This document shows, one piece after another, positions 6,000 to 14,714 of a stretch of DNA of 35,184 nucleotides. The stretch is from a virus. Within the stretch, counting starts at the first letter, position 1, and each line of letters starts with the position of its first letter. The stretch covers positions 1 through 35,184 of IMG/VR virus record IMGVR_UViG_3300021964_000229; one strand, 5' to 3'. The notes beneath the pieces were generated by a model. The model did no database searches. It was not told the DNA's origin and saw only the letters and a program-made list of their open reading frames with translations. The position numbers and the translations under genes are program-made.

Positions 6000-6089
6000 G
6001 GAGAGTTGGCAGAGCGGTTGAATGCACCAGTCTTGAAAACTGGCATAGATGCAAGTCTATCGAGAGTTCGAATCTCTCACTCTCCGCCA
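6000..6089 (+). tRNA. tRNA-Ser (anticodon UGA)
   Basis: The sequence folds into a full class II tRNA. The acceptor arms GGAGAGT and ACTCTCC pair, with discriminator G at 6086 and an encoded CCA at 6087-6089. The anticodon stem CCAGT/ACTGG holds the loop CTTGAAA with anticodon TGA at 6034-6036. A long variable arm (CATAGATGCAAGTCTATC) marks serine, and GAGAG-TTCGAAT-CTCTC is the T arm. It lies 297 bases before the integrase. It could be a translated spare tRNA or the phage copy of the host attachment target; I favour it as part of the integration system. Confidence 0.93.
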
Positions 6090-6116
6090 TCAAAAAAAAA
6101 TTTTCCAAAAAAATAT

Positions 6117-6318
6117 TTTACACGACAATCGCTGAATTTACACGACACTTACACGACAGGGTTGTTTTTATTGGTATTCAAGGGATAAAATCGGTTTTCA
6201 AGACCGATTTCCACATAGTGTGGAAAACAAAAAATCAAGGAATACCGCCAAAAACATGGTTTCTACATAGTAACTAAAAGCAATAAATATGCAATTTTTA
6301 CACGACATTTACACGACA
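6117..6318. repeat. Five TTTACACGACA repeats flanking nested inverted repeats
   Basis: TTTACACGACA occurs at 6117-6127, 6137-6147, 6297-6307 and 6308-6318, plus TTACACGACA at 6149-6158: three on the left, two on the right. Between them an outer inverted repeat GGTATTC/GAATACC (6173-6179, 6240-6246) encloses AAATCGGT/ACCGATTT (6188-6195, 6203-6210) and TTTCCACA-TAG-TGTGGAAA (6208-6226). TGTGGAAAA at 6219-6227 is, reversed, a perfect DnaA-box consensus match. The layout suits integrase arm sites of attP, or an iteron-type origin. Confidence 0.7.
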
Positions 6319-6386: not shown

Positions 6387-7616
6387 ATGAAAACACATAG
6401 AGTAAATGTTCGAGGTGAAAAGAAGTATTGTGTTGTGATTAACACAGGTGAGTTTCACCCTAACGGAAGAGCTAAAGAAAAAAAGTTTTATCACACTAGA
6501 AAAAATGTAGCGATTGATAAAGCTAATGAATTTTTAATTAATTTACCAAATCATAAACAAACTGCTTCTACTGTTAAAAGCGGTTTGACTATTAATCATG
6601 TTTACCGCAAATTAGAGGATGACTGGGAAACGAGAATTGCTATGCGTCAAGCAGATCCTTTAGATAATGAAGGCATAGAGCAAAGTTCGGTTGATCGTTT
6701 AAAGGATAATAAAAAAGCTTTATTTACTATTCTTGGTAATGGTGATCATAAAGCAGGTGAAACATTTGTTTTAAAAAATATTACCCATGAATGGTATGAC
6801 CAATTTCTTAAAGATATGTTTAGAGTACATCATTACACTAAATCTAAAGCTAAAAGAGTTCGTGCCATTTTAAATAATCTTTTAGAAAAAGCAGAGGAGT
6901 TAAATTGGTTTGACTCTCCACATCATAAGTTTGCTAAAAAGGTTACTAAGTATAAACCTCGTAATCAAAAAAGAGCAATGACTGACAAAGAAGCTTTATC
7001 GCTTATTGAAGAATTACAATATAATTTTTTATATGGTCATCGTTCAAATCAACATGGTCGTAGCCATGCAGAAACAGGTGTTACAGAAAGTGCTTTCTTA
7101 ATGATGTTGCAATACCCAACAGGGATGCGATGGGGTGAGTCTGCGGCTTTAAATGTAGAGGATTTTGATTGGGATAATTATACCTTAACAATTAATAAAT
7201 CTCGTGATTACAGAACACGAGTTGTTTCTATGACAAAAGCAGGCAAGCTTCGTCAAGAAGATGCAGATGAAGGTGCAAGAATTGTACCTATTGCTCCAAA
7301 GGTAATGAAGGCTTTTACTAAATATATAAAAGCAAAAAATATTACGTCTGGTGAATTATTTACTGTATCGTATGAAAGCACATTAGAGTTATTACAAAAG
7401 ACTTGTGCTAAAGTTGGTATACCTGCCGAGATCGTAGATACAAAAATATTTAGACGTTACATTATTTCTAAGTGGCAGAAGCTAGGAGTTGACTCTAAAA
7501 CCATTGCATTGCGTGTTGGACACAATGATACAGTTACACAAAATGGATATGGTACTTTTGGAGATACTAATGCATTGAAAGATGTAAAAATGCTTCAAAC
7601 TGCAATCTACAATTAA
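6387..7616 (+). CDS. int: Tyrosine-recombinase integrase
   Basis: The 409-residue protein is a phage integrase that catalyses site-specific integration and excision. The catalytic domain contains R248 in PTGMRWGESAALNVEDF, a probable K271 in the beta-hairpin TINKSRDYRT, R356 in KIFRRYIISKW, H379 in LRVGHNDTVT and the nucleophile Y388 in NGYG. The usual His of the HxxR box is replaced by K353, a variation seen in some family members. The N-terminal half has an arm-binding-like start (MKTHRVNVRGEKKYCVVINT) and a core-binding helical domain at about residues 65-190. AGGAG lies just upstream of the ATG. The tRNA and repeat array upstream supply plausible attachment sites. Confidence 0.93.
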   Translation: MKTHRVNVRGEKKYCVVINTGEFHPNGRAKEKKFYHTRKNVAIDKANEFLINLPNHKQTASTVKSGLTINHVYRKLEDDWETRIAMRQADPLDNEGIEQSSVDRLKDNKKALFTILGNGDHKAGETFVLKNITHEWYDQFLKDMFRVHHYTKSKAKRVRAILNNLLEKAEELNWFDSPHHKFAKKVTKYKPRNQKRAMTDKEALSLIEELQYNFLYGHRSNQHGRSHAETGVTESAFLMMLQYPTGMRWGESAALNVEDFDWDNYTLTINKSRDYRTRVVSMTKAGKLRQEDADEGARIVPIAPKVMKAFTKYIKAKNITSGELFTVSYESTLELLQKTCAKVGIPAEIVDTKIFRRYIISKWQKLGVDSKTIALRVGHNDTVTQNGYGTFGDTNALKDVKMLQTAIYN

Positions 7617-12508: not shown

Positions 12509-12617
12509 AATTTGCCAAGAGACTAAACACTTTTGGGGTGGTTATTTAAATGATTGTTATGAGTCTGCGGAGATAGAATGCTTGAAAAGTGGAAACTTCT
12601 TAAAAAAATCACATTAA
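12417..12617 (+). CDS. 66-residue early protein, TTG start
   Basis: GAGAGGAG lies six bases before a TTG at 12417, which I take as the start because the earlier part of this frame overlaps a better frame. The product contains SKPRKITAQELAKKIIQNRG and FWGGYLNDCYESAEI, a basic alpha-beta pattern with a plausible fold but no known family. It overlaps the gene before it by 92 bases and the winged-helix gene after it by 40, which is unusually heavy even for this genome. Confidence 0.5.
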   Translation: MKPTQLSKPRKITAQELAKKIIQNRGDHYVKICQETKHFWGGYLNDCYESAEIECLKSGNFLKKSH

Positions 12618-13138
12618 ACGATCTTTTTAGTAAAGCTGACATCAGAGTTGCTTTAATACTATTAGACCACTACAACGATAAAATACAAAAGATTTATCCG
12701 TCAAATAGACGTTTAGTTAAGCTAACAGGCTTATCACTACGCCAAGTACAACTCTCCACCGCTAAATTAGATAGTCACAACTTAATCACAAAGTTTTCCA
12801 AGAATGGTAAAAATCATTATAAAATTACACCAGAGGGTTATCAAAACTATGAACAACCTTACACCTCAACTACGAACAAACCTGCACCTCCTACTAAACC
12901 TATCTCTTTAACTATTAATATAAAGGATACTATTTCTAAGATAGCAAAAAGAAGTAATCCTAATTACCGAGCAGTTATTAGTAATGGATTGACGTACCAT
13001 GAGAATATGGAAAATAAGTTAGTGAAACAAATGCGGTCACGATTATCTATTGATCGTTATAATTCTTGGTTGCTTGTTTATGACAATAAAGAAACAAAAC
13101 AAAAAGCTATCTCCTATGCAAAGGAACTATGCGGATAA
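12578..13138 (+). CDS. Winged-helix protein, putative replication initiator
   Basis: The 186-residue protein has an N-terminal winged-helix domain: KADIRVALILLDHYNDKIQK, then PSNRRLVKLTGLSLRQVQLS and LDSHNLITKFSKNGKNHYKI. The layout is that of HTH_36 / phage replication O-like proteins. A Pro/Thr-rich linker (about residues 95-112) joins a C-terminal helical part rich in NPNYRA and RLSIDRYNSW. GGAGAT precedes the ATG. As the genome has no helicase, primase or polymerase, this is the best candidate to recognise an origin and load host enzymes. A transcription regulator is the alternative. Confidence 0.65.
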   Translation: MLEKWKLLKKITLNDLFSKADIRVALILLDHYNDKIQKIYPSNRRLVKLTGLSLRQVQLSTAKLDSHNLITKFSKNGKNHYKITPEGYQNYEQPYTSTTNKPAPPTKPISLTINIKDTISKIAKRSNPNYRAVISNGLTYHENMENKLVKQMRSRLSIDRYNSWLLVYDNKETKQKAISYAKELCG

Positions 13139-13557
13139 TTACACCAGAAGATTTAGATACATTGTTTTATGATGCATTTTTAACGGATCAAAGACTTCCT
13201 GCACCATATCGTAAACAAAAATTAACCATGCAATTAGATATGAATAGAATAGATTGGATGAACTATGTTGATGATAATCCCAATTCTTTACCGCCTACTG
13301 CTCGTAGCATTTCACGATGGGAATTAGCTTTAGAGTTAGTACAGTTAATTAAAAAGGAAGAGGATAGGCAATTGATCTGGCTTCGTGGTAAACGTCTCTC
13401 GTGGTCTAAAATGGGAAGATTAATTGGTATTGATAGACGTAAGGTAAAACTTAAACATAGTGAATTAATGATGACAATATTAATATTAATTAAGTTAATG
13501 AAAGATTTACATCGCAAAGATAAGATTTATAGATTGATTGCTCCAAAGTATGAATAA
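13129..13557 (+). CDS. DUF6362-like helix-turn-helix protein
   Basis: The 142-residue protein shows PTARSISRWELALELVQLIK and DRQLIWLRGKRLSWSKMGRL followed by IGIDRRKVKLKHSELM. The pattern is a helical domain and then a sigma-70-region-4-like helix-turn-helix. This resembles DUF6362, found just before terminase genes in other phages. A role as late-gene activator or packaging cofactor is inferred from the location. It overlaps the initiator-like gene by ten bases. The next gene, terS, follows after a 122-base gap with a promoter and repeats. Confidence 0.7.
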   Translation: MRIITPEDLDTLFYDAFLTDQRLPAPYRKQKLTMQLDMNRIDWMNYVDDNPNSLPPTARSISRWELALELVQLIKKEEDRQLIWLRGKRLSWSKMGRLIGIDRRKVKLKHSELMMTILILIKLMKDLHRKDKIYRLIAPKYE

Positions 13558-14520: not shown

Positions 14521-14540
14521 TTTTTATAATAATTTATACA

Positions 14541-14602
14541 AATCGGTTACTGAAACCGATTATTATCGCAGAATACAGCCATTATTTGCTATGTCGTGTA
14601 AA
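14541..14602. promoter_or_regulatory. Palindrome plus inverted copy of the attP-region repeat
   Basis: AATCGGTT-ACTGA-AACCGATT (14541-14561) shares its arms with the hairpin at 6188-6210. TTATCGCAGAATA (14563-14575) repeats 4448-4460. TGTCGTGTAAA (14592-14602) is the exact reverse complement of the TTTACACGACA repeats beside the integrase. Three elements from two other non-coding regions are gathered in 62 bases. A bulged stem (GGGGTGGT/ACCAACCCC, about 14624-14652) follows. The rest of 14603-14714 holds nothing I can identify. Confidence 0.6.
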
Positions 14603-14714
14603 TGTAGTGTATTTTTATGACAAGGGGTGGTCAATAATTTTACCAACCCCACGAGGTCTTGGCAATAGCTATGGGAACTCACTTCTACTCGGCACAATTT
14701 AACTTACGAATTTT

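Follow-up and report, generated by a model that had tools for sequence, protein, structure and literature searches.

The stretch of DNA analysed here, which we call the window, is a virus record of 35,184 bases with a G+C content of 33.6%. Its terL shares about 50% identity with terL of Pelagibacter and Methylophilales phages. A GenBank search for close phage relatives returned distant terL matches only, and HTVC010P, HTVC204P and Venkman are without cores of the attP type described below. The contig G001 continues from the end of the window into its start, and the resulting circular genome map is compatible with either cos or headful packaging.

The tRNA gene, the repeat array and the integrase

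Three elements follow one another in the window: a tRNA-Ser(TGA) gene (6000-6089), a repeat array (6116-6318) and a tyrosine integrase gene (6387-7616). The tRNA gene is complete, lies on the plus strand with an encoded CCA, scores 59.5 bits against Rfam family RF00005 and has the anticodon stem-loop CCAGT-CTTGAAA-ACTGG.

An earlier note on this DNA described three plus two copies of a direct repeat around nested inverted repeats, and both descriptions hold. The sequence TTACACGACA starts at 6118, 6138, 6149, 6298 and 6309 on the plus strand, four of the five copies reading TTTACACGACA and one CTTACACGACA. Five or more copies of any 10-mer were seen in 5 of 5000 first-order shuffles of the repeat region. 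Numbered from the centre of the core, the plus-strand copies form two left sites at -59 (6137-6147, TTTACACGACA) and -48 (6148-6158, CTTACACGACA), and two right sites at +101 (6297-6307) and +112 (6308-6318). The extra left copy (6116-6127, plus strand) reads TTCACACGACA in all three close relatives and is absent in others; it is specific to the window as a repeat, and the conserved layout is therefore two plus two.

All three pairs of inverted repeats are present. The central hairpin (6188-6210) is formed by AAATCGGT (6188-6195) and ACCGATTT (6203-6210), the putative core half-sites, and on the minus strand it reads AAATCGGT-CTTGAAA-ACCGATTT. The 7 bp in its middle (6196-6202, minus strand) are the proposed overlap region, where crossover would occur, and equal the anticodon loop of tRNA-Ser(UGA). 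A repeat search shows this relationship within the window itself: the 11-bp sequence GTCTTGAAAAC, part of the anticodon stem-loop of the tRNA (6030-6040), has an inverted copy at 6194-6204, at the centre of the hairpin. The outer pair, GGTATTC (6173-6179) and GAATACC (6240-6246), spans 6173-6246. The third hairpin (6208-6226) consists of TTTCCACA (6208-6215) and TGTGGAAA (6219-6226) and carries a DnaA-like box. These last two structures are not conserved: in L003 and L004, whose integrases are 98-99% identical to that of the window, TGTGGAAA and GAATACC are lost, and the arm repeats and the central hairpin are kept.

The integrase (409 amino acids, plus strand) has profile matches to tyrosine recombinases, with R248, K284, K353, R356, H379 and Y388 as the catalytic-type residues. 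In an alignment of 16 family members, with residues assigned by eye, R248, K284, R356, H379 and Y388 are invariant and the histidine of the HxxR box is replaced by K353 in all 16. A structure model (mean pLDDT 78) has three N-terminal strands and a helix, which we take to resemble the arm-binding domains of lambda and Tn916 integrases. Foldseek matches for the model include Tn1549 Int, Xer, Cre and full-length lambda Int (5j0n).

Related loci and their proposed tRNA targets

Searching with the integrase gave three near-identical loci, a profile search added about 20 at 30-58% identity, and a search with the neighbouring gene 13129-13557 gave 34 loci. The repeat-flanked core always lies between the tRNA and the integrase gene, except in L054 and L058, where it lies beside the integrase gene and the tRNA-Ser is on the opposite side of that gene. 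A tRNA-Ser is present in 23 of 23 integrase loci with intact surroundings.

The spacing of the arms, at -59/-48 and +101/+112, is kept within 1-3 bp in at least 15 related phages, although their integrases are only 30-58% identical and the arm sequence itself varies (TTACACGACA, TTACACAACA, TTACTCAACA, TTACATGACA, TTTACACACTT, TTTCACTCTA and ACCATAGCA). One right arm was missed by the search pattern in each of L054, L058 and L071. Conservation among 14 aligned attPs is concentrated in the arms and the core. Given this layout, the TTACACGACA repeats are best read as putative arm-type integrase sites. An AATCAA-like stretch lies to the right of the core in several phages of the window class and is absent in others, and no IHF site could be assigned with confidence.

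The cores fall into three classes. In class A (the window, L052, L053, L054, L025/L055/L057, L058, L059 and L068-L070) the overlap TTTCAAG is that of the anticodon loop. The 15-bp window core CGGTCTTGAAAACCG is intact (15/15) in bacterial tRNA-Ser(tga) and reaches at best 13/15 in any other isotype; many of the Ser(tga) sequences compared were fetched by a pattern holding most of the core, and are nonetheless natural tRNAs. Class B (L035, L049, L063, L066, L067 and L071) has the overlap TGAAAGC, which together with CGGT/ACCG matches the D-loop region of tRNA-Ser(UGA) at 15 of 15 positions; the right half-site of L035 has T in place of A. Class C (L061, L062 and L065) has the core CGGCTTAAACCTCCG and carries tRNA-Ser(GCT). 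No match to this core was found in the tRNA panel compared, and we infer the class C target from the carried isotype alone. Two changes suffice to place the three class labels on the integrase tree, fewer than in any of 200 shuffles, and class A is split over two well-separated clades. Outside CGGT/ACCG, the attP flanks are not tRNA-like in any class.

The carried tRNAs differ from these cores. Where the window attP has CGGT/ACCG, the phage's own tRNA has CAGT/ACTG, and throughout class A the stem of the tRNA reads AGT-CTTGAAA-ACT, with both half-sites broken and pairing kept. In class B tRNAs TGAATGC replaces TGAAAGC and is not followed by ACCG; GGT/ACC around the anticodon loop is kept in three of these six loci and the stem is changed in the other three. 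The class A tRNA of L058 retains TGAAAGC. Each phage's tRNA thus deviates from its own core at the expected integrase site, in small numbers of loci. The compensatory stem changes may keep the carried tRNA from becoming a target of the integrase, which would be a form of self-protection. This is suggestive only, given that half of the D-loop-targeting loci also have changed stems. A literature search for autointegration together with attP and tRNA genes gave no paper, which falls short of showing that self-protection is a new idea.

An integrated copy, from which the earlier note proposed to locate the crossover, was not found in contig scans: integrase and terL searches of genome contigs gave no integrated relative and no host, and a stricter attL-type pattern had no match. 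An attR-type pattern had four matches, none of them with genes of the window phage family; two (L197 and L200) resemble displaced tRNA 3' fragments at the junctions of other elements. The 5' halves of tRNA-Ser in L078, L154 and L192 were considered as junctions and rejected, as the open reading frames around them are those of another marine phage with a different integrase.

That other phage is of interest in itself. In L078, L154 (3308-3365) and L192 its attP holds the 5' half of tRNA-Ser(UGA), its integrase has 425 amino acids, and TGAAAGC and CGGT-CTTGAAA-ACCG occur together in one tRNA there. An unrelated element (L144, 2822-3090, minus strand) has a tRNA-Ser 5' fragment that is broken after the anticodon loop beside another integrase, with a complete tRNA-Ser(TGA) of changed anticodon stem about 130 bp away. 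This is possibly a further case of a rescue tRNA.

A second core between terS and terL

A sixth exact copy of TTACACGACA at 14592 led us to a second integrase-type core, AAATCGGT-TACTGAA-ACCGATT (14540-14561, plus strand), between terS and terL. We refer to it as site 2. It is one-armed: that copy (14592-14601, minus strand) and a second arm-type repeat, ATACACTACA (14603-14612, minus strand), lie on the same side of the core. Site 2 occurs in all examined relatives in which the terS-terL interval is covered, and in L025, L023, L028, L034 and L044 it lies further downstream. Measured from the centre of its core, the arms begin at 41-43 and 52-54 bp, the left arm of attP in mirror image; the spacing is irregular in L046, and L043 was left unscored by the pattern used. 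The overlap varies among phages as T-R-N-N-N-M-A.

Motifs of the form CGGW-N7-ACCG are scarce. There are exactly two each in the window-like genome G004 and in G001, and G002 has a third, which is its own tRNA. A count over 183.5 kb of sequence from the family gave 15 occurrences of CGGW-N7-WCCG and none of the control GGCW-N7-WGCC.

Two possible roles for site 2 were tried and rejected. It is not a second tRNA attP, as its cores match no tRNA above noise, and it is not a packaging site bound by TerS, given that the TerS proteins of L030 and L037 are 99% identical, yet the arms differ. The arms of site 2 equal those of attP in the window, L035 and G002 (L031/L066). That they always do so is false in G001 and L025, where the site 2 arms are TTACCCAACA / TCACCCAACA and the attP arms TTTCACTCTA. 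These two phages have an almost identical attP-integrase module in common, and it may have been swapped recently.

A CAGAAWACAGCC motif is also found beside site 2 and, in some relatives, beside attP (window 14569, L201 6752, L204 267, L035 2543). It may be bound by some protein.

Candidate roles for site 2 are self-recombination, for circularisation or multimer resolution, and a regulatory or structural binding site. We tentatively raise the possibility, and hold it to be rather less than an even prospect, that one integrase serves two sites: attP for insertion into tRNA-Ser, and site 2 for circularisation or multimer resolution by phage-phage recombination, with a rescue tRNA that the integrase would not recognise. 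From the conservation of this one-armed site, a phage integrase would seem to have a further task that has gone unrecognised.

Probable integration and tRNA rescue, and known systems

We consider it very probable that 6116-6318 is an attP of the lambda type, belonging to a temperate marine phage whose insertion breaks a host tRNA-Ser(UGA) gene, and that the carried tRNA makes up for the loss. An attP with arm sites was among the readings offered by the earlier note, and it is strengthened by the fixed geometry of the arms, the adjoining tyrosine integrase with an N-terminal domain of arm-binding type, and the identity of the core with an anticodon loop. The integrase would bind the CGGT/ACCG half-sites of the core, with its N-terminal domain on the TTACACGACA arms on both sides, and would recombine CTTGAAA with its identical counterpart in the host tRNA-Ser(UGA), the 7-bp anticodon loop. 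The core and the tRNA have no more than about 15 bp in common, so that neither of the expected junctions (GCACCGGT-CTTGAAA-ACCGATTTTATCCC and GTGGAAATCGGT-CTTGAAA-ACCGG) would rebuild a tRNA and integration would destroy the host gene. The phage tRNA-Ser(UGA) would then replace the lost tRNA, i.e. tRNA-dependent lysogeny, and it could also be used for translation. Its stem has CAGT/ACTG in place of CGGT/ACCG, which would probably prevent the integrase from taking this phage-encoded tRNA as a target.

There is more than one reason for a phage to carry a tRNA, and the one beside this attP could be a translation helper or an anti-defence tRNA that is independent of integration. We think this unlikely. 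These phages are small and mostly have a single tRNA, which is always Ser and close to the integrase gene. Furthermore, the class whose core differs has switched to the GCT isotype, and the target tRNA would stay broken after recombination at the core.

The earlier note also offered an iteron-type replication origin, here one bound by DnaA and by the replication-like protein encoded at 12578-13138, and this reading is not supported; we regard it as very improbable. Direct repeats and one DnaA-like box are present, and the protein is an HTH_36 protein with weak O-like and DnaD-like matches. Its gene is 6.3 kb from the array, the gene adjoining the repeats is the integrase rather than an initiator, and the layout of the repeats suits integrase arms. 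The box described in the earlier note, TTTTCCACA at 6219-6227 on the minus strand, does fit TTWTNCACA, but this pattern is rarer in the window than expected (3 against 7.4 in shuffles) and the box is lost, together with the outer hairpins, in the relatives L003 and L004 despite their 98-99% identical integrases. GC skew along the window tracks gene orientation and shows no replication signal beyond that. The arms of site 2 differ between L030 and L037 though their O-like proteins are 87% identical (TerS 99%). A weak hint toward an origin comes from the strict box TTATNCACA, which is found 60 bp or less from the attP core at 9 of 19 family loci in about five lineages (L052, L059, L035, L063, L066, L061, L062, L065 and L054) against 0.04 per kb elsewhere; the window itself is without the strict form beside its core.

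Least probable of all, and hardly credible, is an operator function, with a phage repressor or regulator binding the repeats and cores in place of recombination: a regulator could explain why CGGW-N7-ACCG occurs at two places only in window-like genomes, but the 7-bp centre is an anticodon-loop or D-loop stretch of a tRNA, arms flank it on either side at fixed distances like those in lambda, and the repressor gene region at 12 kb is without any copy.

For lambda-type attP and tRNA rescue, the preferred reading, there is a precedent. The earlier note knew of no described example of the arrangement, a claim that does not hold for the combination of attP and tRNA: Guerrero-Bustamante and Hatfull (2024, PMC10865867) describe integration of actinobacteriophages, e.g. 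Fionnbharth, LeBron and Gaia, at a tRNA core of 8-17 bp, where the tRNA is not rebuilt and a phage tRNA rescues the host. The authors ask how common tRNA-dependent lysogeny is beyond actinobacteriophages, and speculate that a plasmid-borne tRNA may serve as a second attB. They also cite the Lj965 prophage of Lactobacillus johnsonii, in which the tRNA is reported not to be rebuilt and a cognate tRNA is encoded; Lj965 belongs to another host group and is likened to our phages by description only.

With lambda attP and Int the window phage shares a 7-bp overlap core, arms on both sides and an N-terminal arm-binding domain. Unlike lambda, which carries no tRNA, its target is a tRNA gene, and an IHF site is not confidently assigned. 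Purely by analogy, Cre/lox of phage P1 may be a parallel to site 2, as a recombinase site that is close to the packaging genes and would have only itself as a partner; site 2 differs in having arm repeats.

The closest likeness in design is to the phages of tRNA-dependent lysogeny, which have a tyrosine integrase, arm sites around a short tRNA core and a carried cognate tRNA, and whose host tRNA is not rebuilt, as would be the case here. The window family differs from the actinobacteriophages in being marine and AT-rich, in its use of tRNA-Ser instead of Lys, Ile2 or Leu, and in having two inferred crossover places in one tRNA. It also differs from them in its conserved second core and arm site, and in a carried tRNA that is altered at the target. 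Dependence on a carried tRNA is apparently the rule in this marine phage family related to pelagiphages, which provides natural switches of target site and isotype. Because the changes in the tRNAs coincide with the expected binding sites of the integrase from the same phage, the family allows a direct test of whether a rescue tRNA has to escape its own integrase.
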